Made by a program: the position numbers and the translations under genes. Of a stretch of 64,000 bases of DNA, positions 7,475-43,803 are shown in pieces. Origin of the DNA: Pontibacter fetidus (lineage in GTDB: Bacteria; Bacteroidota; Bacteroidia; Cytophagales; Hymenobacteraceae); the NCBI RefSeq assembly GCF_010119545.1, contig NZ_JAAEAA010000008.1, positions 62,001-126,000 on the forward strand. Reading direction: 5' to 3'. The notes below the pieces were generated by a model. It ran no database searches and was not told where the DNA came from. It worked only from the letters and a program-made list of their open reading frames with translations. The first letter of the stretch is position 1; each line of letters opens with the position of its first letter.

Positions 7475-8615
7475 GGAGTTTTGGGTTTTAGAATGCTGCT
7501 ATTGGTTGGATTTAAAATTTTATAGTTGCTGTTCAACATCTCGTTGCCAGGTTTTCACCTCACCCCGGCCCTCTCCTGCCAGGAGAGGGAGTTTTCTAGC
7601 TATAGCTATAGTTAAAGCTATAATTCTATAGTTGCTGATTGTCATCCCCCTCCCCCCTTCAAAGGGGCAGGGCCGTTAAGTTCTAGCAAATTCTCCCCTT
7701 GAGGGGAGCGCAGAGGGGTGTTTGCATTAGCGGGTGAATTTAAAACTGGCTAACAATAGGCTTTTTGGCCCTGAATAACACCCCTATAATCCCCTCAAGG
7801 GGATAGTTCTCGGCAGAACTTAACGGCCCTGCCTTCAAAGTGACTTTCTGTTGTTGCTATAGTTGGGAGCTATAGTTTTATAGTTGCCGTGGTCCAACCA
7901 TCCCCAGCCCTCAGAGCTGCGCTCGCTACCTTCGAACTCTCGTTCCCAGTAATCTAAGGCGGGGAGTTTTTTCTGCTATTACTAAAGTTGTCATCCTGAA
8001 AGGATCTTGTGGAAAGCTAGGATACGCCTTTGTCATAACACACCCCTGCCCCCTCTCAAGAGGGGAATTTTCTGCCTCTGCTATAATTAGACCTCAGCTA
8101 TATTTAGAATTATTGTTCTATAGTCGCGGCCTATCCACGGACAGGTCGCGACCTGTCCCTACGAAAATACTAACACGATCAACGTCGAAGCTTAGCGGTG
8201 CAAACCATAGCTACCGGTTAATTGCAGAAAGATCACAGTCTTTGGGTTGAGCGCCTCGAGAGGTTCCGGTGCCGTCAGGCATTGCGACGAAGGAGCAAAG
8301 GAAGCGAAAGCAGCGCGATGCCCAAAGACGGGGCCTCCCGGCCGTGAGGGCACCAAAGCTTAATTGAAACGATAGGTAAGTAGAGCTCCCAGGATAAGAT
8401 GTAGTTATAAAACAACATCTTGTTTCCAGCTGCAATAGACATTAACGATAGCCCAGACGCTAGCAGGAACTGCGTACGCTGCTAGGTTTTCACCAACTTT
8501 AGTAAACTATAGCACTTCGATTTCTCAAGTTATTCGAAATGACAAAGGAACTATAGGCAATCTGATAATTGAATTAGCTATAAACACTGCCACGTCAAAC
8601 TTACGCCTGCTGAAC
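7475..8615. repeat. Composite intergenic repeat, copy A (plus orientation), with extra inverted repeats
   Basis: A 1.1-kb convergent spacer filled with repeat modules in this order: CTCACCCC/GGAGAGGGAG hairpin (about 7557-7591); a long inverted repeat (7668-7722 with 7776-7831); a CATCCTGAAAGGATCTTGTGG module (about 7992-8013); a CCCCTCTCAAGAGGGG hairpin (about 8050-8068); the 20-bp palindrome GGACAGGTCGCGACCTGTCC (8139-8158); the structured core (8236-8394); and an end module TTCGAAATGACA (about 8519-8543). Four other copies lie near 19.9, 23.5, 40.2 and 43.4 kb. The small minus-strand frame at 8211-8435 is a by-product of the structured core, not a gene. Confidence 0.85.
8236..8394 (+). ncRNA. 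Structured core of repeat copy A (candidate RNA fold)
   Basis: Stem 1 pairs GTCTTTGGG (8238-8246) with CCCAAAGAC (8321-8329) and continues past a 4x4 internal loop as GCGC/GCGC. Inside it sits hairpin 2, TGCC-gtca-GGCA (8270-8281). Hairpin 3, GGCC-tccc-GGCC (8332-8343), follows. The core ends in AAGTAGAGCTCCCAGGA (8378-8394). Comparison with the other four copies shows paired changes in all three stems. Confidence 0.5.
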
Positions 8616-9953
8616 TTACTTTACAAAATAAGGGATATTGGCGGTGGCGACATTGTTGTCGCCATCATAGATGTATACAAAAAGGCGGTAGGCTCCTTGC
8701 TGTTGGGGCGTTAAAGTAATTTTATGGCCTGTTGGCTTCCCTAAAACACCGGCAACTACAGCTGGTTTTTTCTCTTTGGCGGCATTGCCATCTTCTGGTT
8801 TGCTTTCGGGTAAAACCTCCCAGTGCAGGCGCAGGGGCTTCCCTTCAGGGTCGAAGGCGTATACGCTGGCTGTAGCGGTTTTTCCAGGCGACAAGTAGAC
8901 GTTATCTTTTGCGTGCTTGTCGTTCAGGGTGAGGTAAGCAATGTAAGGCGCCTCGTTTTTAAGGGAGTCTTTGCCTTGCCACAGTTCTGCTATTTCGTGT
9001 ACCTGTTGTGTCTCCTCGCCTTTTTCCGAAAACATACTGAACCAGGTTGGTGTGGTTTCCTGTTTGTTGCCCCACATAAACACGTAACTGCCCAGGCAGC
9101 GGGCGGTGTCGGCCAACACAGTACGTTCGTAGCGTTCGCGACTGAAAGTGGCTTTTTCAGAACTGGTTTGCTCTATTGGGGCCAGCCATTCGGTATAAAA
9201 GGCCTCCCAGTAGCCGCGCGCACCAAATTCCGAAATAATGTAAGGACCTTTCCAGCTGCTCTGAGCCAGCTCTTCGCGTAAGGTATGCATTGCCCCAAAC
9301 GAGTTGATGGACAATACATCCAGAGCCGGGCAGCGCTTGCTTATCAGGTTGATGTCTTTTAATGGTACATTCATGACCGTGGTGGTGGTTGGGTGATTGG
9401 GATCTAGCTGGTGTATCATTTCCGCGATCTCATTCACGGCATCCCATACCTTTACGTTGGCGCTTTCGGCGTATAGTTCGTTGCCAATTCCCCACATCAG
9501 CAGGGCCGGGTGGTCTTTGTATTGCAGTACCAGCTTACGTATTTCTGCTTTCTGCTGCGCCACCGATTCCCGGTCATAATAGTTGAATCCTTCGCGCTCG
9601 CGGCCCAGCCATAAACCTAGTGTTACCGTCAGTCCGTTTTTATGGGCTTCGTCCAGCACACGTCCGGCATCTTCGGTGTGCCACACTCTTATAGAGTTAC
9701 CCCCATAGGCTTTTACCTTGTCGAAGTGATCATAGCCGGCTGCGCCTTTTATAAAGTAAGGTTTGCCATGCCTGTAAAGTGTATAGTTGCCGTTGCTGCC
9801 CACCAACTCTACGGTTCGGCCTTTGGCGGCATAGGTACGGTCGGTAGCATTGCCAGACCCGCAACTTTGCAGACATAGCAATGCAATAAATAGGGTAAGT
9901 AGCTGTAAAGTGCGGTAAGGGTGCATCAGGGTTTTGTTAAGCGACAGGCTCAT
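8616..9953 (-). CDS. Glycoside hydrolase lipoprotein (GH2-type TIM barrel, clan GH-A)
   Basis: A 445-residue protein. A second ATG at 9926 (MHPYRTLQLLTL...) gives a cleaner lipoprotein signal with lipobox LQSC and may be the real start. The TIM barrel runs from about residue 55 to 335. The acid/base Glu is in MWGIGNELY and the nucleophile Glu in YIISEFGARGY, the two clan GH-A catalytic sites. The C-terminal 100 residues look like an Ig/fibronectin-like beta domain (YRLFVYIYDGDNNVATANI). It probably acts on a beta-glucan or related glycan at the envelope. It is divergent (134 bp) from a cellulose-synthase-like glycosyltransferase, so it may trim or release that polymer. The exact specificity cannot be read from the sequence. 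Confidence 0.85.
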   Translation of the reverse strand: MSLSLNKTLMHPYRTLQLLTLFIALLCLQSCGSGNATDRTYAAKGRTVELVGSNGNYTLYRHGKPYFIKGAAGYDHFDKVKAYGGNSIRVWHTEDAGRVLDEAHKNGLTVTLGLWLGREREGFNYYDRESVAQQKAEIRKLVLQYKDHPALLMWGIGNELYAESANVKVWDAVNEIAEMIHQLDPNHPTTTTVMNVPLKDINLISKRCPALDVLSINSFGAMHTLREELAQSSWKGPYIISEFGARGYWEAFYTEWLAPIEQTSSEKATFSRERYERTVLADTARCLGSYVFMWGNKQETTPTWFSMFSEKGEETQQVHEIAELWQGKDSLKNEAPYIAYLTLNDKHAKDNVYLSPGKTATASVYAFDPEGKPLRLHWEVLPESKPEDGNAAKEKKPAVVAGVLGKPTGHKITLTPQQQGAYRLFVYIYDGDNNVATANIPYFVK

Positions 9954-10087
9954 GAAAAAACCTGTTATAGTTTAGAACATCTGCCACAGATTACGAGTAT
10001 AGAAGGCTTAGGTTTATTACAATACCTATATGTTCTGCTACTCATACCTACTGCCGCCGGCATTTTACACCCTGATTACGTCTGCCT

Positions 10088-11884
10088 ATGTTACCGTTAC
10101 CTTTACAGCATCATAACCCAGCCAAGTTAAAACAGCCTAAAAAAGGTGACGTGCAGGCTATCCGGTTTATGATAGTGCTGGGGCTGTTCTGCATGGCATC
10201 TTTCCTTTACTGGTTCATAGACAAAGACCATATGGGCTATGCACCGCTTTACTGGTTGCTGACTACGGCCCTGGGCTTTAAAATGCTGCGTACCCTGCAC
10301 GAGTGGTATCATTATTTTTCGGTAAGTGTACCGAAGCGCCCGCAGTTAAAAACCCCCTTTACGGTTGATGTTTTTACCACCGCCTGCCCCGGCGAACCGC
10401 ACAGCATGATCATCGGCACCCTGGAGGCTATACAAAACATACGTTACCCGCACACTACTTACCTCTGCGACGAAGGCAACGACCCGGTTTTAAAAGCAGC
10501 CTGCGAGCGCCTGGGCGTAAAACACGTAACCCGAACTATAAAAGTAAATGCCAAAGCCGGCAACGTAAACAATGCCCTGCAATATGCAACCGGCGACATC
10601 TGCCTGATACTGGACCCGGACCACGTACCCTCGCCTGAGTTTCTGGATGAAGTGCTGCCATTTTTTGAAAACCCTGAGGTTGGATTTGTACAGGTGGTGC
10701 AGGCTTACGGAAACCGCAAAGAGAGTCTGGTAGCATACGGCGCAGCAGAGCAGACCTATAGTTTTTATGGCCCCATGATGATGGGCATGAACAGTTACGG
10801 AACCGTGCAGGCCATCGGGGCAAACTGTACTTTCCGGCGTAAGGCCCTGGATAGTATAGGCGGCCACGCCCCCGGGCTTGCCGAAGACATGCATACGGCC
10901 ATGCAACTGCACGCCAAAGGCTGGAAATCGGTGTATGTGCCCAAGATTTTAACCCGCGGACTGGTGCCTGCTACCATGGCCGCCTACTATAAACAACAGA
11001 TAAAATGGGCTCGTGGCACCTTTGAGCTGCTATTTGCGGTTTACCCCAAGCTGTTCAGGCATTTTACCTGGCGCCAGAAGATCCATTATTTCACACTGCC
11101 ACTTTATTACCTGTTCGGGGTGTTTAACCTCATTGATTTTGCCATACCTATATTAGCGCTGGTGCTGGCAGAGTTTCCGTGGTATGTGCCGCTTGGCGAT
11201 TTTGTGCTGATGTTTGCGCCTTTTTTCTGTATCTCAATCTGTATCAGGCATTTTGCGCAGCGCTGGCTCCACGAAACAAACGAAAGCGGCTTCCATATGT
11301 TTGGCGGTATATTGCGTACAGGCACATGGTGGGTTTTCTGCCTGGGGCTGGTGTATTCTATCCTCCGCATAAAAGTACCGTACATCCCAACACCTAAAGA
11401 CGACAAACCGAAGAACAACATCATCCTAAACCTGCCCAACCTGGCTATCTGTGGTATCAGTATCTGGGCTATTATTTACAGCCAGCACGAGTACGGCCAC
11501 CTCTACGACAACCCCTATGTGCAGATGATGGCACTATTTGCCCTTGTAAATGTGTCGATACTGGGCAGCATTGTGCTGATTGGCCAGGAAAAGATGATGT
11601 ACTGGATTAAGACAACTATAGTGCAGGCGCCTGTGTTGCAACCTATGCTGATGCCGGTAAGGTTATTTATCTGGAGAACCCGGCACAGCTTTTATGGCAG
11701 CATCCGGTACTTTGCGCTAACTTTTACCATGCTGGCCGCTATACTTGCTTCCAGCTTTATGCTGCTCAAATACCATTACCTTGAAATGCCCGGCCACACA
11801 GAAAAACCGAAAACCGAAACGCATGGCACGCCGGTAAAAGAGAGCACTGTGCTCCAATCCATCATCCGGAAATTTAAAGATTAG
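10088..11884 (+). CDS. Cellulose-synthase-like glycosyltransferase family 2
   Basis: A 598-residue integral membrane synthase. Two N-terminal transmembrane helices (about residues 25-65) precede the GT2 domain. Its motifs are CDEGND (first Asp), DPDHVP (DxD metal/UDP site), AEDMHT (general base, TED-like) and QQIKWARG (the Q(Q/R)xRW acceptor motif, with a shortened form). At least six more helices follow from about residue 325 (LPLYYLFGVFNLIDFAIPIL). This is the layout of processive beta-glycan synthases. There is no PilZ domain in the C-terminus, so c-di-GMP control is not evident. The start at 10088 follows a weak ribosome-binding context; the in-frame Met near residue 28 is an alternative. 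Its divergent neighbour is a GH-A hydrolase, suggesting a synthase/hydrolase pair. Confidence 0.88.
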   Translation: MLPLPLQHHNPAKLKQPKKGDVQAIRFMIVLGLFCMASFLYWFIDKDHMGYAPLYWLLTTALGFKMLRTLHEWYHYFSVSVPKRPQLKTPFTVDVFTTACPGEPHSMIIGTLEAIQNIRYPHTTYLCDEGNDPVLKAACERLGVKHVTRTIKVNAKAGNVNNALQYATGDICLILDPDHVPSPEFLDEVLPFFENPEVGFVQVVQAYGNRKESLVAYGAAEQTYSFYGPMMMGMNSYGTVQAIGANCTFRRKALDSIGGHAPGLAEDMHTAMQLHAKGWKSVYVPKILTRGLVPATMAAYYKQQIKWARGTFELLFAVYPKLFRHFTWRQKIHYFTLPLYYLFGVFNLIDFAIPILALVLAEFPWYVPLGDFVLMFAPFFCISICIRHFAQRWLHETNESGFHMFGGILRTGTWWVFCLGLVYSILRIKVPYIPTPKDDKPKNNIILNLPNLAICGISIWAIIYSQHEYGHLYDNPYVQMMALFALVNVSILGSIVLIGQEKMMYWIKTTIVQAPVLQPMLMPVRLFIWRTRHSFYGSIRYFALTFTMLAAILASSFMLLKYHYLEMPGHTEKPKTETHGTPVKESTVLQSIIRKFKD

Positions 11885-11982
11885 CAGCAACACGCGTTTA
11901 AGTCGCTGATTTGCTTGAGACGCTACCCTGGCAGGTTCCCTTCCCAGCTTAAAATGCCAGCGCATTAAGCATTTGGTTCGTA

Positions 11983-12657
11983 TTAATCAAAGACTTCTTC
12001 CTTTAAGTAATTCCTGTTTTTATCAGGGTCGGCGGGTTTGGTTGCAGTAAACTGTTCTATAGTTTGGGTATACATATTAATATGCCAGATAGCAGGATAT
12101 AAGTTTTTGTGGTCGAAGCCCCGTACCAAACCTACAACTACAATTTCATCGGGGTTGCGCCACCACGCTGCATGGTATTGACATACATTGCCACAGAACA
12201 TCAGCCGTACCCGCTCTCCTGTTTCTAAGTCAACTATAGCTGCTTCGCTGTCTGGGGTAGTAGTTATGGGGTGCTTGCCTGCAGCAGTTAAAGTATGGTT
12301 AAAAGTATAGATGTCAAGCACTTTTTGTTTGTCTGGGGAGGGTGTAAAACGCTTGCGGTGCTTGCGGTAAACTTGCTGCCAGTCAGGTGTTGCCGGCACA
12401 GTTAGCAGGTCTGTGTTCCAGATTTCACGCAGCTTAAAAACCGAATCAGCATCCAGATTATAGAAATCAAACCAATCGTCCAGCTCTTCGCGTGTTTCCG
12501 TTACCAACCTGTAGCGTGCAGCCTCCTCTTCAGACAGTTGCGCTAAAGCAGTTTCGCTTTCCGGTGTAGGTTCGTCGTGCGTGCAAGCCGTAAGGCCGGC
12601 TACAAGCAAACAAGTGGCTATAATTTGATAGATTGAACGTAAAAAAACTGCCCCCAT
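11983..12657 (-). CDS. Hypothetical lipoprotein
   Basis: A 224-residue protein of unrecognised family. It has an N-terminal hydrophobic signal (IYQIIATCLLVAGLTAC) with lipobox LTAC, then an acidic linker with THDEPTPESE. The mature region has a helix-rich part (EEEAARYRLVTETREELDDW) and a beta-rich part with two Cys in the motif FCGNVCQYH and the conserved-looking AAWWRNPDEIVVVGLV. The Cys pair could form a disulphide or bind a metal. It lies between the GT2 synthase (convergent) and the vWA gene (same strand, 66 bp), but nothing ties it functionally to either. Confidence 0.7.
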   Translation of the reverse strand: MGAVFLRSIYQIIATCLLVAGLTACTHDEPTPESETALAQLSEEEAARYRLVTETREELDDWFDFYNLDADSVFKLREIWNTDLLTVPATPDWQQVYRKHRKRFTPSPDKQKVLDIYTFNHTLTAAGKHPITTTPDSEAAIVDLETGERVRLMFCGNVCQYHAAWWRNPDEIVVVGLVRGFDHKNLYPAIWHINMYTQTIEQFTATKPADPDKNRNYLKEEVFD

Positions 12658-12723
12658 TCTGTAGATTTTAGCTTTAGCTAAGTACGTACTGAACAGGGGC
12701 AGGTATAAGTTTACAACTATAGT

Positions 12724-19862: not shown

Positions 19863-20335
19863 TACCTCACCCCAGCCCTCTCCTAACAGGAGATGGAGTA
19901 ACACACCCCTGCCCCTCTCAAGAGGGGAGTTTCTGCATTGCTATAATTAGATTTATTATTCTATAGTCACAGCCTATCCAAGGACAGGTCGCGACCTGTC
20001 CCTACGGAAATATGACCACGATCAATTTCGAAGCTTACCGCTACAACTATAGAAAAGCTGGTGCTATGAGAAATTTATCAGTCTTTGGGTTGAGCGCCTT
20101 GTAGATTTCTGGTGCCGTCAGGCATTGCGACGAAGGAGCAAAAGAAATGTACACCGCGCGACGCCCGAAGACGAGGCCTCGCGGCCGTGAGCGCACCAGA
20201 GTTAGATTGGAACGATAAGTAAGTAGAGCTCCCAGGATTAGAGGAAATTTGAAAGGATAGCTTGGTTCAAATAAGTATATGCCTCAGCTAAAGGACATAT
20301 GAGATCCTTCGACTAACGCTTGGAATGACAAAGTG
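19863..20335 (+). repeat. Composite intergenic repeat, copy B (plus orientation)
   Basis: Modules in order: CTCACCCC...GGAGATGGAG (19865-19898), CCCCTCTCAAGAGGGG (about 19913-19928), palindrome GGACAGGTCGCGACCTGTCC (19982-20001), structured core (20079-20237), and end module GAGATCCTTC...GGAATGACA (20301-20330). It fills the convergent spacer between the YczE-type and transglutaminase-like genes. The preceding 19726-19862 holds a TGAATCAGGATTTACAGGAT module (about 19793-19812) also seen near 40040. Confidence 0.85.
20079..20237 (+). ncRNA. Structured core of repeat copy B (candidate RNA fold)
   Basis: Stem 1: GTCTTTGGG (20081-20089) with CCCGAAGAC (20164-20172), using one U-G wobble. Then GCGC/GCGC. 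Hairpin 2: TGCC-gtca-GGCA (20113-20124). Hairpin 3: GGCC-tcgc-GGCC (20175-20186). The wobble pairs only if this strand is the RNA, which gives the element a sense direction. Confidence 0.5.
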
Positions 20336-20339
20336 TAAA

Positions 20340-21356
20340 CTACCCTCCAACCTTATACTCCATAAAATAACTATAATTCCCTTTAGTGCCTTTTTTGCGG
20401 GCCATTACCGCAAGGCTGCCGGTTGTGGGCCTTACTTGCAAGTTATGGGTGGTGCCTTTTGTCTCGAAGTAAAACCACTTTTTATTATTTAACACGATCA
20501 ATTCTACATCGGGGGAAGTGGTAAATGCCAGGGTATAGGTTTTGCCGTGTTGTAATTTTCCTTCCAGCGGGGCGTTGGCAATTTGTATAGGCAAGGCCGG
20601 GTGCCAGGTGGTAGCTACGGAATGCAGCTGGCCTGATAGCAGGTTTTGCAATAAGTCAGACGCATCAACCCCCAGCTTAAACAACGATTCATCCACAGAG
20701 ATCATGCGTTCGTATTGTACCAGCGTAATGGGCGTTGGTATGTGCTGCCACTCAGGGCTTTTAGGCAAATGGCTGAACAAAAACGCATACGGATCAGTAT
20801 CGAACCAGTAAGGTGTGTAATCGAATTTAGATTTTAGCTTACCATTTACCATTTCTGCGGCACCAGAGCCCCAGGTAGCATCCACTAAGCGCCAGCGCCC
20901 ATTCAGGTATACACTGTTCCAGGCGTGGTTGGTTTGTGTAAATTTTTTGCCGGGTGCATAACTATAGCCTTTGGCGTAACCGCTTACTTTCTCTACCTTC
21001 AAACCCATTTGCTCGCCTAAGGCTTTGTACAAACGGGCATACCCATCGCAAACCGAAAGCCGGGTTTCCAGCACCGCCTCTACCGATGTGTTTCCAAAAT
21101 TACCACTGTTATAGCCGTAATCGTTGTACCGGATGTTTTTGGCAACCCATGCAAAAATAATACGGGCACGTTCGTAATCTGAGGTTGCACCTTTATTGAG
21201 GTAAGCGGCCAGCGTTTTAACATCTTTTGTGTAACGGACATCGGTACTAAAGGCAAATTGGTCCAGTTCTTTTAGCCGTTCGGGGCTGGGTATGTTAGCA
21301 GCAAAGCCGTGCACAACAGGCACCAACAGCATAACCAGTAACAGTTGCAGGCGCAT
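20340..21356 (-). CDS. Transglutaminase-like (papain-fold) secreted protein
   Basis: The protein has 338 residues from the ATG at 21356 (MRLQLLLVMLLVPVVHGFAA, a clean signal peptide). ATGs at 21416 and 21449 would add an amphipathic stretch before it and cannot be excluded. The transglutaminase-core triad is visible: Cys in LSVCDGYARLYKAL, His in TNHAWNSVYL and Asp in RLVDATWGSG. The C-terminal 130 residues form a beta-rich domain ending NYSYFMEYKVGG. Such proteins (kyphoscoliosis-peptidase/DUF3857-like group) are periplasmic peptidases or amidases of unknown substrate. It is convergent with the YczE-type gene across repeat copy B. Confidence 0.85.
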   Translation of the reverse strand: MRLQLLLVMLLVPVVHGFAANIPSPERLKELDQFAFSTDVRYTKDVKTLAAYLNKGATSDYERARIIFAWVAKNIRYNDYGYNSGNFGNTSVEAVLETRLSVCDGYARLYKALGEQMGLKVEKVSGYAKGYSYAPGKKFTQTNHAWNSVYLNGRWRLVDATWGSGAAEMVNGKLKSKFDYTPYWFDTDPYAFLFSHLPKSPEWQHIPTPITLVQYERMISVDESLFKLGVDASDLLQNLLSGQLHSVATTWHPALPIQIANAPLEGKLQHGKTYTLAFTTSPDVELIVLNNKKWFYFETKGTTHNLQVRPTTGSLAVMARKKGTKGNYSYFMEYKVGG

Positions 21357-21738
21357 AACGGCAGGCAACGTATTTTTCAGGCGAATCAGGGTAAGGCTTA
21401 TAGTTTTCAGGAGCATGTAATAGGTAATGAAATAGGTAATCAGCAACACAATGCCCTAAGCACCTGTATTGGTTCAACTATAACGCGGCAAACAGGCAGG
21501 TAAGTATACAATTCTAAGGCCGGCATGTTAAAAAGCTAAGATAATGAAGCAGTTACAGGCATGTATTTTGTAAACAACTTGTTTGGGCAGGACAGACGAA
21601 GTAATGTTGCAACACTTTACAGGCAAGGGCAGGTATACGTTTTGAACTATACGAAGGCCAAAAAGTAACATTTAAGGTTTATGCTTTAAACGGAAACTCA
21701 TGGCCTGCTTTGTTAGTTTTTACTAAAATTTGAAGCTT

Positions 21739-23391
21739 ATGACACAGTACAGCAGGTGGTATCACCCTTACGATATAGATGAAAAATACAATAAGCGGGT
21801 TGCTTATTTCAGCATGGAGTTTGGCATCGATCAGGCTTTTAAAATATACTCTGGAGGTTTAGGTTTCCTGGCTGGCTCACATATGCGCAGTGCTCACGAC
21901 CTGCGCCAGAACATGATCGGGATAGGTATGCTTTGGAAATATGGCTATTACGACCAGGTACGGCACGACGATCAGACCATGCGGGCGCAGTTCCTTAAAA
22001 AATATTACACTTTTCTGGAAGAAACTGGCATTACGGTTACTGTTAGGGTAAACAACCACGAAGTTCGTGTTAAGGCACTGGTACTGAAGCCGGAGGTATT
22101 TGGCACTGTGCCTATGTATTTCCTGACAACCGATATCCCTGAAAACGACTACCTGGCACGTACCATTTCGCACCGGCTCTACGACCCCGAAGTAAGCACT
22201 CGTATTGCGCAAAGTATAGTATTGGGTATAGGTGGCCGTAAAGTGGTAGAGGCACTGGGCGGCGCCGACCTTTATCACCTGAACGAGGCCCATGCCCTGC
22301 CCCTTGCCTTTGACCTGCTCGACACTTACAGGAGTGTAGAAAAAGTACGTGAGCACCTGGTATTTACAACCCATACCCCCGAAAAAGCTGGCAACGAAGA
22401 ACACGACATCCATTTTCTGGACCGAATGAGCTTCTTTAATGGCACGCCGTTGGAAGAAGTTCGCAGGATAACCCACATGGAAGGCCATATGTTTAACCAT
22501 ACGCTGGCCGCACTGCGTCTTTCAAAAGTAGCGAACGGCGTATCGCAGCTGCATGGCGAGGTGGCCCGCGAAATGTGGGACGAGAACCACGGTATCTGTG
22601 AAATTAAAGCCATTACTAATGCCCAGCACGCCAAATACTGGACCGACGGATTTCTGTGGAACGCCCTGCAGAACAATGACGACAACTACCTGGTAGTGCG
22701 CAAAAAGGAAATGAAACACCAGCTATTTAAAATAGTGGCTAACCAGACCGGCAAGCTTTTTAACCCCGAAGTGCTGACCATTGTGTGGGCCCGCCGCTTT
22801 GCTGCTTATAAACGCGCCGACCTACTGGTGCGTGATCTGGAGCGTTTCCTGGCACTGGTAAATAACAAGGAACGCCCGGTGCAGGTAATCTGGGCTGGTA
22901 AACCTTACCCCTTTGATGAAGGCGCAGTCGACACCTTTAACCGCCTTGTAAAGCTGTCTATTAAGCAGCCGAACTTTGCCGTACTAACTGGCTACGAAAT
23001 GGAGCTGTCACGTTACCTGAAACAAGGTTCGGATGTATGGCTGAACACACCACGACGCCCACGGGAGGCATCGGGCACGAGTGGTATGACTGCCGCCATG
23101 AACGGTTCGATCAACTTTTCGATACAGGATGGCTGGTTGCCAGAGTTCTCCCGTCACGGCGAAAACAGTTTTATACTTCCGGTAGTGGATACCTCATTGC
23201 CAGATCACCTGCAGGATACAGAAGACCACAAAAACCTGATGCACATCCTGGAACACGAAATTATACCGACCTACTACTTCGATCATGGCAAGTGGCTCAG
23301 CATTATGAAGCAAAGCATGTATGATGTGCTCCCGTTTTTTGGCTCAGACCGTATGGCCCATGAGTATTATGAGAAACTGTACAATTACTAG
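21739..23391 (+). CDS. Alpha-glucan phosphorylase-family protein (GT35-like, short form), PLP-lysine position is Thr
   Basis: A 550-residue cytoplasmic protein, from the ATG at 21739; an in-frame TTG nine bases earlier is less likely. It matches the short alpha-glucan phosphorylase group (TIGR02094-like): VAYFSMEFGID at the N-terminus, GLGFLAGSHMRSAHDL, FTTHTPEKAGNEEHD, WARRFAAYKRADLL and the C-terminal EASGTSGMTAAMNGSINFS. Canonical phosphorylases have Lys after this Met (GNMK/GMK), which holds pyridoxal phosphate. Here the codon is ACT (Thr), with no frameshift around it. The enzyme may still act on glycogen or starch, but perhaps not by the PLP mechanism. It is monocistronic, with a terminator after it. 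Confidence 0.82.
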   Translation: MTQYSRWYHPYDIDEKYNKRVAYFSMEFGIDQAFKIYSGGLGFLAGSHMRSAHDLRQNMIGIGMLWKYGYYDQVRHDDQTMRAQFLKKYYTFLEETGITVTVRVNNHEVRVKALVLKPEVFGTVPMYFLTTDIPENDYLARTISHRLYDPEVSTRIAQSIVLGIGGRKVVEALGGADLYHLNEAHALPLAFDLLDTYRSVEKVREHLVFTTHTPEKAGNEEHDIHFLDRMSFFNGTPLEEVRRITHMEGHMFNHTLAALRLSKVANGVSQLHGEVAREMWDENHGICEIKAITNAQHAKYWTDGFLWNALQNNDDNYLVVRKKEMKHQLFKIVANQTGKLFNPEVLTIVWARRFAAYKRADLLVRDLERFLALVNNKERPVQVIWAGKPYPFDEGAVDTFNRLVKLSIKQPNFAVLTGYEMELSRYLKQGSDVWLNTPRRPREASGTSGMTAAMNGSINFSIQDGWLPEFSRHGENSFILPVVDTSLPDHLQDTEDHKNLMHILEHEIIPTYYFDHGKWLSIMKQSMYDVLPFFGSDRMAHEYYEKLYNY

Positions 23392-23410
23392 ACTATAGTT
23401 TATCGCTTAA

Positions 23411-23443
23411 AAAAGCCGCTTTGTTTATCGCAAAGTGGCTTTT
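23411..23443 (+). terminator. Terminator of the phosphorylase-family gene
   Basis: A 13-bp stem AAAAGCCGCTTTG/CAAAGTGGCTTTT (23411-23423 with 23431-23443, one G-T wobble), followed by TTTG. Confidence 0.88.
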
Positions 23444-23499
23444 TTGTTTTGGATGTACAGGTTCCTATACTTGAAGTTTGCAGCGGTTTTAGTTCTATT

Positions 23500-24010
23500 T
23501 TGTCATTTCGAGCATGGTCAAGAATCTTATATGTCCTATAGTTTGATTTCCTTCCAACAAGCTATCCTTTCTAACTTCTTCTAATCCTGAGAGCTTTACT
23601 TGCCTACAGTTTTATAGTTGGCTTTGGTGCCCTCATGGCCGGGAGGCCTCGTCTTCGGGCATCGCGCGGTGCAAATCTCTTTTGCTCGTTCCTCGCAATG
23701 CCTTAACGGCACCAGATATTTACAAGGCGCTCAACCCGAAGACTGATAAATTTCTCATAGCTTCTGTTTGACTATAGTTTGAAACTTACTCGCTTCGAGT
23801 TTTATCGTGGTTATAGATCCGTAGGGACAGGTCGCGACCTGTCCGTGCATGGACTCAAACCATAAACTATAACATGAACTATAGCAAAGTCAGAAAAGTC
23901 CCCCTTTGAAGGGGGCAGGGGGATGTTTAGCTCCAACTATAAAACTTATGACTCCAACTATAACATAGACAGAATCCCCTCTCCTGTGTTTAGGAGAGGG
24001 CTGGGGTGAG
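23500..24010 (-). repeat. Composite intergenic repeat, copy C (reverse orientation)
   Basis: Read on the minus strand the modules keep the order of the other copies: CTCACCCC/GGAGAGG hairpin (23978-24010), a CCCCTTTGAAGGGGG hairpin (about 23900-23915), palindrome GGACAGGTCGCGACCTGTCC (23825-23844), structured core (23585-23745), and end module AGATTCT...GAAATGACA (23501-23527). It lies in the convergent spacer between the phosphorylase-family gene and mug. Confidence 0.85.
23585..23745 (-). ncRNA. Structured core of repeat copy C (candidate RNA fold)
   Basis: On the minus strand stem 1 is GTCTTCGGG (23735-23743) with CCCGAAGAC (23651-23659): the pair that is U-A in copy A and U-G in B and D is C-G here. 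Hairpin 2 is TGCC-gttaa-GGCA (23699-23711) with a 5-nt loop. Hairpin 3 is GGCC-tccc-GGCC (23637-23648). Confidence 0.5.
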
Positions 24011-32867: not shown

Positions 32868-32880
32868 ACAGGCAGCATTA

Positions 32881-37381: not shown

Positions 37382-37384
37382 ATC

Positions 37385-37926: not shown

Positions 37927-38151
37927 ATGGGAAACGAAGCTTTGAAACTGGAATTAATTGAATGGTTGGCTCAGTTAGACGACGAAGACACCATTCAGTA
38001 TCTTAAAGTTGTAAAAGACTCTGCTTCTGAGAAAGACTGGTGGCCAAACTTAACGCCAGAGCAGCGCGCAGGAATAGAACGCGGATTACAAGACATTGAC
38101 CAAGACAAGGTTACTTCACACGAAGAAGTTAAGAAACTCTTTGGATTATGA
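37927..38151 (+). CDS. Putative antitoxin of a ParE/RelE-type module
   Basis: A 74-residue acidic protein (ELIEWLAQLDDEDTIQYLKV). The C-terminal SHEEVKKLFGL end is typical of short type II antitoxins in Bacteroidota (RelB/addiction-module-like). LEWLxxL-type helices could form the dimer. The start of the toxin overlaps its stop by 4 bp (ATGA), the usual arrangement with translational coupling. It should bind the toxin and autoregulate the operon, but no DNA-binding domain is clear from the sequence. Confidence 0.75.
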   Translation: MGNEALKLELIEWLAQLDDEDTIQYLKVVKDSASEKDWWPNLTPEQRAGIERGLQDIDQDKVTSHEEVKKLFGL

Positions 38152-38441
38152 GTTATCCGATCTTCTGGTCAGATGAAGCGATTAGAAATTTAGAAACTAT
38201 ACTTTCCTATCTCTCCACTAAATGGACTGAAAAAGAAGCAAGTAGCTTCAAAGCTCGATTAGCTGAGCAGTTAAGTATTATATCAAAATTCCCTACCGTA
38301 TTTCCTGTTTCTCCTTCTGTACCACGCTTACGAAAAGCAGTTCTAACAAAGCAGACCATTATTTTCTATGAGTTCAGAGATCAGCATATTTATATCGCTT
38401 ACTTATTCGAGTCCAGGCAAAACCCGGATAAGGTAAGCTAA
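38148..38441 (+). CDS. ParE/RelE-family toxin
   Basis: A 97-residue protein. The family strands are visible: PIFWSDEAIRNLETILSYLS, an Arg-containing SVPRLRKAVLTKQTIIFYEF, and the last strand IYIAYLFESRQNPDKV. This is the ParE/RelE fold that inhibits either gyrase (ParE) or translation (RelE). The F-E-S-R-Q-x-P end is common to Bacteroidota ParE-like toxins. It is the second gene of the pair with 37927-38151. Which target it hits cannot be told. Confidence 0.85.
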   Translation: MSYPIFWSDEAIRNLETILSYLSTKWTEKEASSFKARLAEQLSIISKFPTVFPVSPSVPRLRKAVLTKQTIIFYEFRDQHIYIAYLFESRQNPDKVS

Positions 38442-38570
38442 ACCTGACAAATATCTCCCTTTCCACTCCCCTACTACTGACATATATCATTTCCTGCGGC
38501 GCAGCTTCTTCGGACATTTGCAGTATAAACTCAGCCCGAAATTGGGGCAACTATACTAAACACGTACGTT

Positions 38571-39944
38571 ATGACCGCACCAGTAACTACACCAACTGAA
38601 CTACTTGCCAAATACGATGTGCCTTCGCCGAGGTACACCAGCTATCCGACTGTGCCGTTCTGGGACGAAACTCCCCTGAGCGAAGCCGCCTGGATGCTGC
38701 ACGTAAAACAGGCTTTTGATAAGACCAACGATACGGACGGCATTAGTGTGTACATGCACCTGCCTTTCTGCGAAAAACTTTGCACCTACTGCGGCTGCAA
38801 CAAGCGCATTACCACCAACCACGCCGTTGAAGAACCTTATATTGTTGCCATTTTAAAAGAGTGGGAACGCTACCTGCAGGTTTTCGGAAGGAAGCCGCGC
38901 ATTACAGAACTGCACCTGGGTGGTGGTACGCCTACTTTCTTCGGAGCCGAGAACTTGAAACTGATGTTGGGCAAACTGCTGGAGAAAGCCGAACTGGCCC
39001 CGGATGCTGCTTTGAGTATAGAAGTGCACCCTAACGCCACCAATGCCGAACAATTACAGGTGCTTTACGACCTGGGCTTCAGAAGACTGAGCGTAGGCAT
39101 CCAGGATTTCGACATTAAAGTTCAGTTCGTCATCAACCGTATTCAGAGCTTTGAGCGGACAAAAGAGACTTTCGATGCTGCCCGCAGAATTGGCTATACA
39201 TCAATAAACGGAGACATTATTTACGGCCTGCCGATGCAAACTGCCGACAGCGTGCGCCATACGATAGAAAAAGTAAAAGAGCTTCGTCCGGAGCGTATAG
39301 CGTTTTATAGTTACGCCCACGTGCCCTGGAAGAGCAAAGCCCAGCGCCGCTATTCCGAAGCCGACCTACCGGAGCCATCTGTAAAACGTGGTTTATACGA
39401 AATGGGCCGCGCCATGCTGGAAGAAGCCGGTTACATAGAAATAGGTCTGGACCACTTCGCGCTGCCAACCGACGAACTATACCTGGCAGCCCAAAACGGC
39501 ACCCTGCACCGCAACTTTATGGGCTACACCCCACGCCACACCGAGCTGTTAATTGGCTTAGGTTGCTCCAGTATTTCAGATACCGGCACCGCTTTTATGC
39601 AGAACATTAAGGAAGTAGAAGCCTACGAAACAGCTGTAAACTCCGGCATTTTGCCAATCCTGAAAGGCCATGAACTAACTGCTGAAGACCGCCTGATCCG
39701 CAAACATATCCTGGACCTGATGTGCCAGTTTAAAACTGAATGGGATGAAGCCGTTGCACCTTATTTTGTAGATGCCCTGGTTCGCCTGCAACCGCTTGCA
39801 GAAGATGGATTGGTTGAATATACCAATACAGGAATACAGATACTTCCTGCTGGCCACCCATTTGTGCGCAACATTGCCATGTGCCTCGATGCCAGATTAT
39901 GGGCACAACAGCCAACTACGCCGGTGTTTAGCAAGTCGGTCTGA
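38571..39944 (+). CDS. hemN: Oxygen-independent coproporphyrinogen III dehydrogenase
   Basis: A 457-residue radical-SAM enzyme that converts coproporphyrinogen III to protoporphyrinogen IX without oxygen. The Fe-S motif is PFCEKLCTYCGCNK (C-x3-C-x2-C, with the extra Cys typical of HemN), at about residues 65-78. Family features ELHLGGGTPTFF, VGIQDFDIKVQ, GLPMQTADSV and the C-terminal HemN domain GLVEYTN are present, and length is normal. HemJ, the next step in the pathway, lies 860 bp downstream beyond repeat copy D. Confidence 0.97.
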   Translation: MTAPVTTPTELLAKYDVPSPRYTSYPTVPFWDETPLSEAAWMLHVKQAFDKTNDTDGISVYMHLPFCEKLCTYCGCNKRITTNHAVEEPYIVAILKEWERYLQVFGRKPRITELHLGGGTPTFFGAENLKLMLGKLLEKAELAPDAALSIEVHPNATNAEQLQVLYDLGFRRLSVGIQDFDIKVQFVINRIQSFERTKETFDAARRIGYTSINGDIIYGLPMQTADSVRHTIEKVKELRPERIAFYSYAHVPWKSKAQRRYSEADLPEPSVKRGLYEMGRAMLEEAGYIEIGLDHFALPTDELYLAAQNGTLHRNFMGYTPRHTELLIGLGCSSISDTGTAFMQNIKEVEAYETAVNSGILPILKGHELTAEDRLIRKHILDLMCQFKTEWDEAVAPYFVDALVRLQPLAEDGLVEYTNTGIQILPAGHPFVRNIAMCLDARLWAQQPTTPVFSKSV

Positions 39945-40010
39945 ACCACGGATTAATGGGGATTTCTGGGATTGGTATGATTTAAGATTTGGATTTCGAT
40001 TTTTAGGAAG

Positions 40011-40032
40011 GAGCTGTTTTTAGGGACGGCTC
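40011..40032 (+). terminator. Probable terminator of hemN
   Basis: GAGCTGT/ACGGCTC (40011-40017 with 40026-40032, one U-G wobble), with TTTTTG after it. Confidence 0.6.
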
Positions 40033-40198
40033 TTTTTGTTTGAATCAGGATTTACTGGAATGATGGATTAGCAGGATTTTATCAGACCTCGTAGTGTGCG
40101 CAGCTCCTACGAGTGTCTGGCTACGAAACAACGGCTGATCCTGTAGACGCTCCGAGGTCGTTTTGAGGGGCAGATATAATTTTATAGTTACAGTTTTT

Positions 40199-40730
40199 AC
40201 CTCACCCCAACCCTCTCCTAAAAACAGGAGAGGAAGTTTTTGTTACTTTTTCTTTTGTCATCCTGAAAGGATCTTGTGGGATGGGAGGTTAAGCCTTCGC
40301 TATAACCCACCCCTGCCCCTCCCGAGAGAGGAATTTATGCTATAGATAGAGCTGCTAGTATAGTTCTATAGTTATAGCCTGTGAGCGGACAGGTCGCGAG
40401 CTGTCCCTACGGAAATACAACCAAGATAAATCTCGAAGCTTACCGGGTCAGGCTATAGACAAACTATAGCTATGAGAAATTTAGCAGTCTTTGGGTTGAG
40501 CGCCTTTGATTTGTTGCGGTGCCGACAGGCAACCCGAGGGACGAGGGTAGCAAGAAAGCAGCAGCGCGATGCCCGAAGACGGGGCCTCCCGGCCGTGAGG
40601 GCACCAAAGTAAAAGATGAAACGAAAGGCAAGTAGAGCTCCCAGGATTGGTAGTGGCTATGGAAGAGAAGGCTTGTTAGCGGTTCAACTATAAGCCAAGA
40701 TAGATTTCTCACTGCGTTCGAAATGACATT
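40199..40730 (+). repeat. Composite intergenic repeat, copy D (plus orientation)
   Basis: Modules: CTCACCCC/GGAGAGG (40201-40233), CATCCTGAAAGGATCTTGTGG (about 40259-40280), CCCCTCCCGAGAG (about 40315), palindrome with one mismatch (40387-40406), structured core (40485-40646), and end module AGATTTCTC...GAAATGACA (40702-40728). This is the only copy between two genes of the same direction (hemN and hemJ). The start of the spacer (39945-40080) carries a GGATTTACTGGAATGATGG module related to one at 19793. Confidence 0.85.
40485..40646 (+). ncRNA. Structured core of repeat copy D (candidate RNA fold)
   Basis: Stem 1: GTCTTTGGG (40487-40495) with CCCGAAGAC (40572-40580), one U-G wobble. GCGC/GCGC extension. 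Hairpin 2: TGCC-gaca-GGCA (40520-40531). Hairpin 3: GGCC-tccc-GGCC (40583-40594). Confidence 0.5.
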
Positions 40731-40775
40731 TATCAAACTCATACCTCTCAACTTTTAACTCTTAACTTATCAAAC

Positions 40776-40783
40776 TACCTTTG
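40776..40783 (+). promoter_or_regulatory. -7 box upstream of hemJ
   Basis: TACCTTTG (TAnnTTTG consensus) 23 nt before the hemJ ATG, directly after repeat copy D. Confidence 0.5.
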
Positions 40784-40806
40784 CTAAACAACTATACCTA
40801 TAGTTC

Positions 40807-41340
40807 ATGGACTATTTCTACGTTAAAGCGCTGCACATCATATTTGTGGTAACCTGGTTTGCCGGGCTGTTTTACATTGTGCGCCTGTTCATTTACTTTG
40901 CCGAAGCCGCTGAAAAGCCCGAGCCTGAGCGATCTATACTCTTGGAGCAGTTTAAGATAATGCAGAAAAGACTGTGGTATGGTATTACCTGGCCCTCGGC
41001 GGTGCTTACGCTGATATTTGGCTTAAGCATGTGGCACTTATTTGGCGGTACCCCCAACTGGCTTATCTGGAAACTTAGCTTTGTAGTAGGGCTTTATGTG
41101 TACCATTTTCTATGCCATGCCATTTTTAAGCAGCAACAGCAGGGTATTTTAAAGTATAGTTCTACCCAACTGCGCATCTGGAACGAGGTAGCCACACTTT
41201 TCCTGATCAGTATTGTGTTTCTGGTAGTGCTTAAAAATACTTTGAGCATGGTGTGGGGCATTATCGGTCTTATCCTTTTTTCAGCTATCTTAATGCTGGC
41301 CATACGCATTTATAAACGTGTGCGCGAAAAAACCAAGTAA
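40807..41340 (+). CDS. hemJ: Protoporphyrinogen IX oxidase, HemJ type
   Basis: A 177-residue inner-membrane protein with about four helices. The N-terminus ALHIIFVVTWFAGLFYIVRL holds the invariant His of HemJ, the ligand for its own haem. WYGITWPSAVLTLIFG and WLIWKLSFVVGLYVYHFLCH (second conserved His and Lys) also match. HemJ oxidises protoporphyrinogen IX in haem synthesis in bacteria without HemG or HemY. Length is a little above the usual 140-150 because of a C-terminal basic helix. HemN is the nearest gene upstream, so the two make consecutive haem-pathway steps. Confidence 0.88.
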   Translation: MDYFYVKALHIIFVVTWFAGLFYIVRLFIYFAEAAEKPEPERSILLEQFKIMQKRLWYGITWPSAVLTLIFGLSMWHLFGGTPNWLIWKLSFVVGLYVYHFLCHAIFKQQQQGILKYSSTQLRIWNEVATLFLISIVFLVVLKNTLSMVWGIIGLILFSAILMLAIRIYKRVREKTK

Positions 41341-41378
41341 TTTTACACGCAACAATCAGCAATTCAATAACTACCTAT

Positions 41379-42017
41379 ATGAAGCAGCCCGACCTGAAGG
41401 CCAATGAACGCGAACTGATCAAACTTATCCGCTTTTTTAGCAAGCGTGCCAAAAGCTTGATTGAGGCTGGCAAGCTAGACCCGGAACACGAAAAACTAAC
41501 CTCGGCCTGTCAGAACCTAGAGCAGCAACTATACACCCATGCCCACAACCGAACGGCTATACTGGAAAAACGAGCCCGTCTGGAGAAAGTAGTAGAAGAC
41601 AATGCCCAGTGCCCGCAATGTAAGCACGCCGATATGCTGAAACGCACAGGCACTACCAGCAACGAACACGGCTGGCGCTGCAATACGTATAAATGCCGCC
41701 GCTGCAACATAACCTTCACCTGGAACCGCCCCAACAATCCGTGGCACCTGGTAGAATTTCTGGAGCTTTACATAAATGAGTTGGAGAACAGCTTACATAC
41801 AGAGCAAAGTGAGCAGATGCGCCAGCACATTGTAACCTCTATAGCCCAGATGCAGGAAAGCCTGAACCGTCTGCGCCCCGTTTTACAGGATTCTGATGAA
41901 GAAGTAACTGCACTTGACCAGAAAGAACAGGAAATGACACGACTTATACACCAGTTTAAAAACTACCTGCTCATCGAGAAAATAAAACTGGATACCCTGG
42001 AAGAACCTGAACTATAA
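41379..42017 (+). CDS. Hypothetical coiled-coil protein with zinc-ribbon-like module
   Basis: Family not recognised. 212 residues in three parts: an N-terminal helical region (about 1-70, LIRFFSKRAKSLIEAGKLD); a four-Cys ribbon (C-x2-C in CPQCKH and C-x4-CRRC in CNTYKCRRC, about residues 79-110); and a long helical, probably coiled-coil, C-terminus rich in Glu/Gln. The order suggests nucleic-acid or protein binding at a scaffold, but no enzyme motif is present. It starts 38 bp after hemJ and may be co-transcribed with it. Confidence 0.65.
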   Translation: MKQPDLKANERELIKLIRFFSKRAKSLIEAGKLDPEHEKLTSACQNLEQQLYTHAHNRTAILEKRARLEKVVEDNAQCPQCKHADMLKRTGTTSNEHGWRCNTYKCRRCNITFTWNRPNNPWHLVEFLELYINELENSLHTEQSEQMRQHIVTSIAQMQESLNRLRPVLQDSDEEVTALDQKEQEMTRLIHQFKNYLLIEKIKLDTLEEPEL

Positions 42018-42070
42018 CCAACAGTAACTTATCTTTTTATTACTGAATAAGTTACATTTCATAAAACAAG

Positions 42071-42132
42071 CAAATTGCTGTTATACTAACATCCGTTTTC
42101 AAAAACGTATCGCTCAGTGTAACAGCAATTTG
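42071..42132 (+). terminator. Long hairpin after the zinc-ribbon gene
   Basis: A 17-bp stem (42071-42087 with 42116-42132, one U-G pair) with an internal GTTTTC/AAAAAC; the right arm is followed by TGTTTTTA. Probable terminator. Confidence 0.7.
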
Positions 42133-42344
42133 TGTTTTTATACCTCAAATGGCTGCAAGCGCTATAGTTTAACATTGGACTTAAACCACATAATTACTGC
42201 AAACTGTGGCTTAATTTATAACTATAACAGTAATTCGATAAAAATTTAGAAAGAATGTAACTCCATTTACTAAATTTTCGTAGCGCAGCCATACAACCTA
42301 TGTTATTAATTTCTATATTGTACTTGAAGTTAGTTGATATCATT

Positions 42345-42554
42345 ATGGAGTACAATATTATAATCGCACCTGATCTTGATTCTTTGGCTACAGAAGTGGC
42401 TGATTTTATCCCAATGGGCTGGAAACTGAAAGGCAGTATTCTGGAACATAACGGTGGCTATGCCCAGCAACTGGAACGCAGGCCATCTGATGCTATACGA
42501 ATGCAACGTAAACAGCGCCCTGCCAAGCAAAAACGCACAAAATGGATTGAATAG
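42345..42554 (+). CDS. DUF1737-like small protein
   Basis: 69 residues from the ATG at 42345; an upstream start at 42300 would add an unlikely hydrophobic stretch. The pattern YNIIIAPDLDSLATEVADFI then GWKLKGSILEHNGGYAQQLE is that of DUF1737 (small beta-alpha proteins with a G-W-x-x-x-G-G core). The C-terminal tail is very basic (RMQRKQRPAKQKRTKW), unlike the domain itself, and may bind nucleic acid. It is monocistronic with its own terminator. Confidence 0.65.
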   Translation: MEYNIIIAPDLDSLATEVADFIPMGWKLKGSILEHNGGYAQQLERRPSDAIRMQRKQRPAKQKRTKWIE

Positions 42555-42578
42555 GTATCAATAAAATAAGCCAAAGTT

Positions 42579-42621
42579 GAACCACTCCTGAAATTGCGTT
42601 TTGCAAAACCGGGAGTGGTTC
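42579..42621 (+). terminator. Terminator of the DUF1737-like gene
   Basis: GAACCACTCC (42579-42588) pairs with GGAGTGGTTC (42612-42621), with TTTTTTTG directly after it. Confidence 0.88.
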
Positions 42622-42702
42622 TTTTTTTGCCATTTCGCCTAACCTAAGCTTGCCTATAACAGTATAGACACAGGAATATATTACCCTTAACCCTATATTT
42701 AC

Positions 42703-43332
42703 ATGGCACAACTTGCTACCACCCCTGGCAATGCTATGGGCGCACCAACAGGTCTATCCCTTAAAAACCAGGTTTACCTGCCTTTAAAACGCTGGCTGTT
42801 GCTAAATTTCAAGCTCGATACTACTTATTTTAAGCAGCAACCCGACCGCATCTGGCTCGACCGTCACTTATACTCTCGTCTGTCTCAGCTTAAGCAGGGT
42901 CGCATTTTATTTGTTGGCTGTGCTTTTTATACCTGGGAGTCGTTAAAGCTGTTCCATAAAGGAGTAGACCTTGTGACTGTAGATATTGATGAATGCAACG
43001 AGATTTGGGGAGGAGATAAACACCTGGTAGCAAGCATTTTAGATATCGATAAGTTTGTAGAACCTCACAGTTTCGATATAGTGTTGCTGAACGGGATTTT
43101 CGGGCATGGTGTAAATACTCCCGAAATGCAGGAACAGACATTCAAAGCCCTTCATAACATTCTGAAACCAGATGGCTTGCTGCAAATTGGCTGGAACCAC
43201 GACCTTATCACCGACCCAACTGAATTACAGCTAAGCAAAGACCTTTTTTATAAAACTGCTTACGAAGGCCTTCCGCAACGCACGACTTTCCCGGACTCTA
43301 CCCACGTGTTTGATTTTATGCGTGCAAAATAG
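42703..43332 (+). CDS. SAM-dependent methyltransferase-like protein
   Basis: A 209-residue soluble protein. The Rossmann motif I is GRILFVGCAFYTW (here G-C-A for G-x-G), motif II VTVDIDECNEIWG, motif IV FDIVLLNGIFGHG, and post-IV LKPDGLLQIGWNH. This is the class I (Methyltransf_11-like) layout. The motif I glycine pattern is atypical, so SAM binding is probable but not certain. The TATATTTA sequence just before the ATG resembles a -7 box. Substrate unknown; it is separated from the polysaccharide locus by repeat copy E. Confidence 0.75.
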   Translation: MAQLATTPGNAMGAPTGLSLKNQVYLPLKRWLLLNFKLDTTYFKQQPDRIWLDRHLYSRLSQLKQGRILFVGCAFYTWESLKLFHKGVDLVTVDIDECNEIWGGDKHLVASILDIDKFVEPHSFDIVLLNGIFGHGVNTPEMQEQTFKALHNILKPDGLLQIGWNHDLITDPTELQLSKDLFYKTAYEGLPQRTTFPDSTHVFDFMRAK

Positions 43333-43352
43333 TTTAAGCACTCTAGCTGTTG

Positions 43353-43803
43353 TTTTACCTCACCCCAACCCTCTCCTAAACACAGGAGAGGGAGTTTTTC
43401 TGGTTATAGCTATAGTTGAAGTTACAGCTCTATAGTTTCAGACCAAGATCGGACAGGTCGCGACCTGTCCCTACGAAAATATTACCATGATCAATCTCGA
43501 AGCGAGTAGGTTCAAACTATAGATAAAGGTCAATAGTAGAAAGATTACAGTCATTGGGTTGAGCGCCTTTGACTTGTTGCGGTGGCGTGAGCCAATCCGA
43601 GGCACGAGGATAGCAAGAAGGCAGCAGCGCGATGCCCAAAGACGAGCCCTCGCGGGCTTGGAGCGAGCCAAGTGAACTATTAAACTATAGGTAAGTAAAG
43701 CTCCCAGGAATAAAAGTTATTTGAAAAAAGGCTTGGTTCAGATAGCAAGTAATGTCAACTATAGGACATATAAGATTCCTCGGCTAGCGCTCGGAATGAC
43801 AAC
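43353..43803 (+). repeat. Composite intergenic repeat, copy E (plus orientation)
   Basis: Modules: CTCACCCC/GGAGAGGGAG hairpin (43359-43393), perfect 20-bp palindrome (43451-43470), structured core (43548-43709), and end module AGATTCCTC...GGAATGACA (43772-43801). It is the shortest copy and lacks the CCCCTCTCAAGAGGGG module. It lies in a convergent spacer. Confidence 0.85.
43548..43709 (+). ncRNA. Structured core of repeat copy E (most diverged, candidate RNA fold)
   Basis: Stem 1: GTCATTGGG (43550-43558) with CCCAAAGAC (43635-43643), one A-A mismatch. Hairpin 2 is TGGC-gtga-GCCA (43583-43594), with a C-G to G-C switch on both arms against other copies. Hairpin 3 is AGCCC-tcgc-GGGCT (43645-43658), also with a paired G-C to C-G switch. 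Confidence 0.5.

Follow-up and report, generated by a model that had tools for sequence, protein, structure and literature searches.

A composite repeat in gene-end spacers

We analysed a stretch of 64,000 nucleotides from Pontibacter fetidus (Hymenobacteraceae; positions 62,001 to 126,000 of contig NZ_JAAEAA010000008.1), referred to here as the window, in which five intergenic spacers carry the same composite repeat, built around a structured core of ~125 nt. Judged by a single protein, the closest named relatives of this genome belong to Pontibacter. The cores, named A to E, occupy positions 8236..8358 (+), 20079..20201 (+), 23622..23745 (-), 40485..40609 (+) and 43548..43672 (+) and score 127.7, 132.0, 132.4, 144.8 and 125.6 bits, respectively, with a covariance model. 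A first-pass annotation of the sequence had claimed these five copies, and the core starts (23745 for C, which lies on the minus strand) bear it out. Five places in the window match the first 20 nt of the core, against a chance expectation of 0.00 (100 shuffles). The genome-wide search that the annotation had proposed returned 118 seed matches with up to three mismatches and none with a reversed control, so that its count of five holds for the window but misses the rest of the genomic set. A related genome, G028, contains 110 exact seed matches, and 135 when up to two mismatches are allowed, versus 3 in the reversed control. The copies are dispersed and lie mostly just 3' of genes. The repeat is a real, dispersed and structurally constrained element.

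Each core forms part of a larger unit. Upstream lies a palindrome resembling repetitive extragenic palindromic (REP) sequences, seen directly in the sequence at 8139..8158 in copy A (GGACAGGTCGCGACCTGTCC), 19982..20001 in B and 43451..43470 in E, and found by pattern match at 23825..23844 in C (upstream on the minus strand) and, with one mismatch, at 40387..40406 in D. Downstream, a conserved tail, which in copy A opens with AGCTCCCAGGA, covers 8359..8430 (+), 20202..20275 (+), 23547..23621 (-), 40610..40690 (+) and 43673..43745 (+) in A to E, all ends being approximate. The palindrome module GTAGGGACAGGTCGCGACCTGTCC fits a short REP hairpin with a GTAG/GGAG foot; the core does not. In a covariance-model scan of 444 kb of syntenic stretches from six genomes, which also provides our unseeded control set, palindrome, core and tail occurred together at all 23 core sites. 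Loose patterns found the palindrome at nine places and the tail at one where there was no core, and we take these as chance matches. The edges of the composite, when looked at for terminal inverted repeats, fade gradually.

A hairpin scan placed terminator-like modules ahead of the core, and in the same direction, in copies A (7569..7589, with another at 8050-8065; +), C (23977..24000, with another at 23900-23915; -), D (40212..40233; +) and E (43369..43392; +). The scans gave 27 and 6 terminator-like sites in total, versus 18.7 and 4.0 in shuffles, and the association with the core is suggestive only.

As had been noted in the first-pass annotation, four of the five copies lie at convergent gene ends, with D in a tandem spacer. 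Among 37 hand-picked open reading frames (ORFs) of the window, a core is found in 4 of 7 convergent spacers versus 1 of 29 others (Fisher p 0.003). Own copies were sampled more widely as 65 sequences, comprising the five window copies and 60 fetched from 100 listed among the 118 genome matches. Both flanks could be called for 38 of these, giving 17 convergent, 21 tandem and 0 divergent placements; 15 of the tandem copies point in the direction of the genes versus 6 against it (p 0.08).

The spacer at 39944-40807 and its syntenic counterparts contain differing C-rich and G-rich hairpin modules upstream of the core, with CTATAGTT linkers between them. The order and orientation of these modules are similar from species to species, and downstream of the core the CTATAGTT linker is reversed. 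The octamer AACTATAG/CTATAGTT occurs 101 times in the window (1-64000) versus 2.8 expected from base composition, 50 times in coding and 51 times in non-coding sequence; it resembles highly iterated palindromes known from other genomes.

Fold, covariation and strand of the core

The aligned copies strongly support a conserved fold of the core that includes a pseudoknot and shows two-sided changes in most of its helices. It is made up of a closing stem of 9 bp (40487-40495 with 40572-40580 in copy D), a three-way junction that carries two hairpins, and a pseudoknot of the H type. Inside the closing stem, an inner GCGC helix is followed by a long helix, P2, which comes in four sequence types (type 2 in A, type 3 in B, type 4 in C, type 1 in D and E) and encloses the two hairpins. 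The first of these has mostly GNA or GNNA loops, and the second has tandem G-A pairs and mostly a GNA loop closed by G-C or C-G. In type-2 arms, much of the outer P2 is unpaired. Located 3' of the closing stem is the sequence GGCC-U-CCC-GGCC-GUGA-GGG, in which GGCC pairs with GGCC (40583-40586 with 40591-40594 in D) and CCC with GGG (40588-40590 with 40599-40601), thereby forming the pseudoknot; in copy E the two stems read GCCC/GGGC and CGC/GCG. RNAalifold, run without structure input, recovers the same helices except for the outer part of P2, and the single-copy minimum-energy folds of A and D pick a different hairpin in the pseudoknot stretch.

The paired substitutions reported in the first-pass annotation are present in the sequence. 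Pair 8-95 of the closing stem (numbered as in alignment A2, below) reads U-A in copy A, U-G in copies B and D, and C-G in copy C, and TGCC/GGCA of what the annotation called hairpin 2 becomes TGGC/GCCA in E. The change from GGCC/GGCC to GCCC/GGGC in E is likewise there, but what had been called a third hairpin is one half of the pseudoknot. The annotation had also missed the P2 arms and the hairpin with tandem G-A pairs, both of them helical parts of the fold. Copy E has one broken closing-stem pair (A-A).

Both pseudoknot stems are present, by aligned columns, in 99 of 103 copies. CCC meets GGG in 73 of 76 copies, and 2 of the 27 other copies would pair with it; CGC meets GCG in 21 of 21, and 1 of the 82 others would pair. 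Overall, the swapped control gave 190/412 pairings, and CTC partners are uninformative (97 of 99 other copies would pair), so that the case for the pseudoknot rests on CCC and CGC. A competing hairpin in this region, CGGG/CCCG, came top in an automatic count and was dropped because GAGG variants break its pairing.

Alignment A1 holds 61 own copies, from which four insertion-bearing copies are excluded, and alignment A2 holds 60, with one deletion-bearing copy additionally left out. In A2, 94.7% of cells pair, versus 37-47% with slid partners, and two-sided changes occur at 13 pairs and in 175 cells, versus 5-35 cells in the slid controls; the corresponding shuffle means are 85.4% paired, 10.6 pairs and 67.4 cells. 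Because the own copies in this set were found via the seed, selection accounts in part for the near-invariance of the closing stem on its 5' side. In the unseeded set of 23 cores, 96.5% of cells are paired and 15 of 35 pairs show two-sided changes. In the genus-wide set (34 copies, 30 genomes), whose alignment was fitted to the model and hence leans towards it, the values are 95.3% and 21 of 35. Four copies from another genus, g5 (L168-L171), pair in 35/35, 35/35, 35/35 and 34/34 cells and have additional compensated changes in the closing stem, for instance, TTTCGG with CCGGAAG; genera g2 and g3 are represented by covariance-model scores. Between copies, the two P2 arms differ by 0.33 and 0.30, versus 0.32 for the upstream linker.

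As a strict null, substitutions placed by parsimony were redistributed over a tree of 103 copies in 60 replicates; any single tree is approximate because the copies recombine. When all column pairs were counted, four of the 35 fold pairs reached E<0.05, and significance was confined to the fold. Covariation, for which the first-pass annotation had proposed a test, is significant in these four. By arithmetic on the same output, 12 would pass if just the 35 fold pairs were counted (an E value of up to 7.2 when 7260 column pairs are counted). Taken together with the proportions of paired cells (94.7-96.5%) and the pseudoknot partner counts, this upholds the structured nature that had been proposed for the repeat. 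Coding by the core was considered as well and rejected: judged by eye, a frame is open through core and tail in some species and has a TAG stop in others, and the fold explains the pattern better.

Among 3581 stem cells, 3332 are Watson-Crick, 112 G-T, 2 A-C and 135 other, with one closing-stem pair supplying 70 of the 112 G-T cells. The prevalence of G-T over A-C identifies the sense strand as the folding strand, in the direction given by the first-pass annotation. Folding energies support the same strand: in the window cores they range from -49.1 to -53.1 kcal/mol for the sense strand versus -41.6 to -43.1 kcal/mol for the antisense strand, a difference of 6 to 12 kcal/mol within each core, and z-scores of the sense strand against shuffles are modest (-1.55 to -5.02). 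This G-T/A-C asymmetry fits RNA and top-strand single-stranded DNA alike.

Occurrence in the family and at orthologous sites

Covariance model R2 has matches in 69 of 204 family genomes and in four of six genera, namely, 43 of 50 genomes of the own genus, 8 of g2, 2 of g3 and 16 of g5. With R2, up to 17 candidates were scored per genome under stricter filters; by handle number, every genome of g2, g3 and g5 has a match, and among the family genomes scored there was no match in g4, a genus of ~120 genomes, or in g6. Model R1, with up to 70 candidates scored in each, matches in 42 of the 50 genus genomes, and seven of the 50 have no core among 150 candidates scored in each. At 7 of 13 loci in low-copy genomes, the core is broken by an insert of ~21 nt. 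We considered such genomes as the native context of the repeat and rejected this, as they hold remnants and no partner gene. Viral contigs were likewise discarded as carriers, with 57 exact 15-mer matches of which the covariance model scored 0.

The mini-insert itself (GGGGGTAGGGGCCCTCGATAA and variants) also lies inside 4 of the 65 own cores; the loci of both groups are L030, L034, L050, L059, L310, L311, L313, L314, L317, L318 and L321. Its sites within cores are runs of G or C, and the loop of the terminator-like hairpin module contains it too. The insert seems to be a second mobile repeat of very small size.

Syntenic stretches of five relatives (G028, G017, G009, G038 and G045) were compared with the window genome. 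Site D has a core in all six genomes, in constant orientation. Site E is occupied in the window genome, G009 and G038, and G028, G017 and G045 have a gap of 97-132 nt in its place; at site B, G038 has a 98-nt gap without a core. Site C is occupied in five genomes, the entire composite being inverted in G009 and G038, and its arms are chimeric in G017 and G009, which favours recombination between copies. The unseeded scan of these stretches gave 23 full-length cores of 96.8-144.8 bits, with the next match at 11.9 bits and no core remnants in the 444 kb. The three lowest-scoring cores are damaged: one in G028 contains an insertion, and the others are the chimeric cores at site C. Occupied and empty orthologous spacers, together with copy numbers from none to >100, support in part that the repeat is mobile.

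A rearrangement was seen in the G028 stretch L322-L323, compared with window positions 20079-23745: the pair of genes that lies between sites B and C is inverted, and the cores on either side of it have opposite orientations. This is what recombination between inverted cores would yield; G045 has the same gene order, yet without cores there.

Consistent with the earlier statement that the window holds no driver of the REP-associated tyrosine transposase (RAYT) kind, we found no Y1 gene in it, but the genome, where the first-pass annotation had suggested looking, has four Y1/RAYT-like genes (L069-L072). Each adjoins a different hairpin repeat of its own, and the flanks of the four (~1.5 kb per side) contain neither the core nor the REP-like palindrome. 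Across the genus, 43 of 50 genomes have Y1 genes; all 38 genomes with at least three core matches are among them, and 7 of the 12 with fewer are not. These seven Y1-negative genomes have 0-2 core matches each (p 8e-6, uncorrected for kinship).

Relation to known repeats and possible modes of spread

At gathering cut-offs the window has no match in Rfam, and composite E gave just two matches, far below the cut-offs (E 1.3 and 2.3). Among the titles listed in searches of the open-access literature, none describes this element. The repeat is apparently new as a family and, in kind, akin to BOX and BIME (bacterial interspersed mosaic element) repeats. BOX elements of Streptococcus are described as high-copy modular repeats that are enriched between convergent genes, are predicted to fold if transcribed and are thought to be parasitic, with an old spread and little present movement; a partner insertion sequence (IS), ISSpn2, was proposed for them from terminal repeats (PMC3049150). 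The Pontibacter repeat is likewise high-copy, modular, commoner between convergent genes and old, a likeness of kind, as it was set beside BOX by description. It differs in the covariation and pseudoknot of its core and in its matches in four genera, and no IS partner was found. BIMEs, REPs and REPINs are spacer mosaics of palindromes and linkers and a persistent sequence population (PMC3733652, PMC8049555). Shared with these systems are the mosaic in spacers, one GTAG-footed module, the persistence of the sequence population and RAYT-like genes in the genome. The Pontibacter core, however, greatly exceeds a REP hairpin in size and complexity, the Y1 genes of the genome adjoin other hairpins, and in the family at large the distribution of Y1 does not follow that of the core. 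Like miniature inverted-repeat transposable elements, the repeat is intergenic and dispersed with no gene of its own seen, but terminal inverted repeats and target duplications are not established for it. With Rfam RNA families it shares a conserved fold with compensatory changes.

In light of this, we favour, at a probability of about 0.5, a BOX/BIME-like mosaic repeat that is probably non-autonomous, acts as a folded single strand and is spread by a trans-acting enzyme. The unit would consist of the REP-like palindrome, the pseudoknotted core and the conserved tail. The putative enzyme would recognise the sense strand in its folded form, most probably as RNA, and would spread the unit into gene-end spacers roughly as has been proposed for BOX elements and REPINs. 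RNA seems more likely than DNA as the folded strand, the fold may be required for the copying or for the retention of each copy, and we presume that a single trans-acting enzyme exists.

Several observations weigh against this reading. Further pair types are no more numerous than in shuffles, of which 484, 200 and 155 of 500 reach the count in A2, the genus-wide alignment and the unseeded set, respectively. No own composite pair exceeds ~88% identity along at least 370 nt, and the median identity of the best local alignments is 76.7% (2033 of 2080 own-copy pairs); the own copies are therefore old, and ongoing movement is only a presumption. The earlier proposal of a mobile element holds as far as sites E and B, which are indeed empty in some relatives, but neither a target duplication nor an exact junction came to light at the empty sites, the species being too diverged for such precision. 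A selfish element would not usually lack remnants, and their absence also agrees with use by the host. No replichore (lagging-strand) bias was seen in G028 for the first 100 of its 135 matches, and plasmid and phage records gave no core match. As to the enzyme, genomes G059 and G192 have at least 17 core matches each and no Y1 match at E<=0.001, a search that a very diverged RAYT could escape, and 83 g4 genomes, counted from the lists, are Y1-positive with no core match. Hence, Y1/RAYT is neither necessary nor sufficient. Reverse transcriptase (PF00078) was not found in the window genome, G028, G017 or G038, and TnpB (PF07282, E<=0.001) is absent from the window genome.

We therefore rejected RAYT/Y1 as an obligatory driver, given that its strong genus-level association fails at the family level and also in the Y1 tree, where five core-bearing genomes with just one Y1 gene each are spread over three parts and two of these genes have an internal stop. 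This tree is built from the 32 of 54 loci that yielded a protein by motif filter (22 were dropped, including one own gene), and a few rows with very long branches may not be Y1. Reverse transcriptase was rejected too, PF00078 being present in 17 of the 38 genomes with at least three core matches and in 7 of the 12 with fewer. G037 has 14 reverse-transcriptase matches, many of identical score, and only two core matches, both interrupted. TnpB, as driver or with the core as an omega-RNA remnant, was set aside because PF07282 occurs in just 6 of 50 genus genomes and does not track the core. A partner gene beside the core did not emerge either: comparing the ORFs of 38 loci all against all gave core-overlapping ORFs, the other matches being one orthologous locus pair and two weak matches.

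The same fold could instead serve the host. A cis-acting RNA element at 3' ends, whose copies stabilise or end neighbouring transcripts and are kept foldable by selection, is possible, although clearly less probable than spread by a trans-acting enzyme. It would account for the location at gene ends, for the terminator-like hairpins that point the same way ahead of four cores, for site D being filled in one orientation in all six species, for arms that are about as diverged as the linker and still paired, and for 444 kb without a remnant. Less easily accommodated are the seven genus genomes and two genera without a core, the emptiness of site E in three of six genomes despite the same gene pair, the small insertions that interrupt cores at 7 of 13 loci in low-copy genomes, and an upstream gene at D that appears to carry its own terminator ahead of the composite.

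More doubtful is a mobile bacterial RNA resembling short interspersed nuclear elements, pseudoknotted and without genes or classical transposon ends, that spreads via its folded transcript. On this reading the element, which occurs in four genera of Hymenobacteraceae and has >100 copies in some genomes, would have a novel enzyme as its driver.

GNA and GNNA loops would suit stable DNA hairpins. We nevertheless regard it as unlikely that the repeat is a single-stranded DNA element, in which a Y1 (HUH) transposase of RAYT or IS200/IS605 type would cut and paste the top strand once this has folded in the course of replication or repair. The genus-level link speaks for it, with 0-2 cores in all seven Y1-negative genomes and at least three in 38 of the 43 Y1-positive ones. 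So does the GTAG-footed palindrome, which is part of the unit in close relatives and also lies near two Y1 genes (L115 and L119). Against this stand G059 and G192 and, conversely, the 83 g4 genomes, the sole Y1 genes that lie scattered in the tree and in two cases contain a stop, the other hairpins beside the four own Y1 genes, and the lack of replichore bias. Passive homologous spread of an old hairpin-repeat mosaic by gene conversion or rearrangement, without an enzyme of its own, has the chimeric arms at site C and the G028 inversion in its favour but is very unlikely, since it leaves unexplained both the occupied spacers that are ~100 nt and core-free in relatives and the maintenance of the fold.

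With >100 diverged versions of one fold in single genomes, and with dozens of species, the repeat offers a large natural data set for a direct test of whether interspersed repeats of bacteria act as RNA. If the core is transcribed, it would constitute a large RNA family that is absent from Rfam, and if the repeat moves, its driver would be an enzyme yet to be identified. The repeat may also cause local inversions in these genomes.

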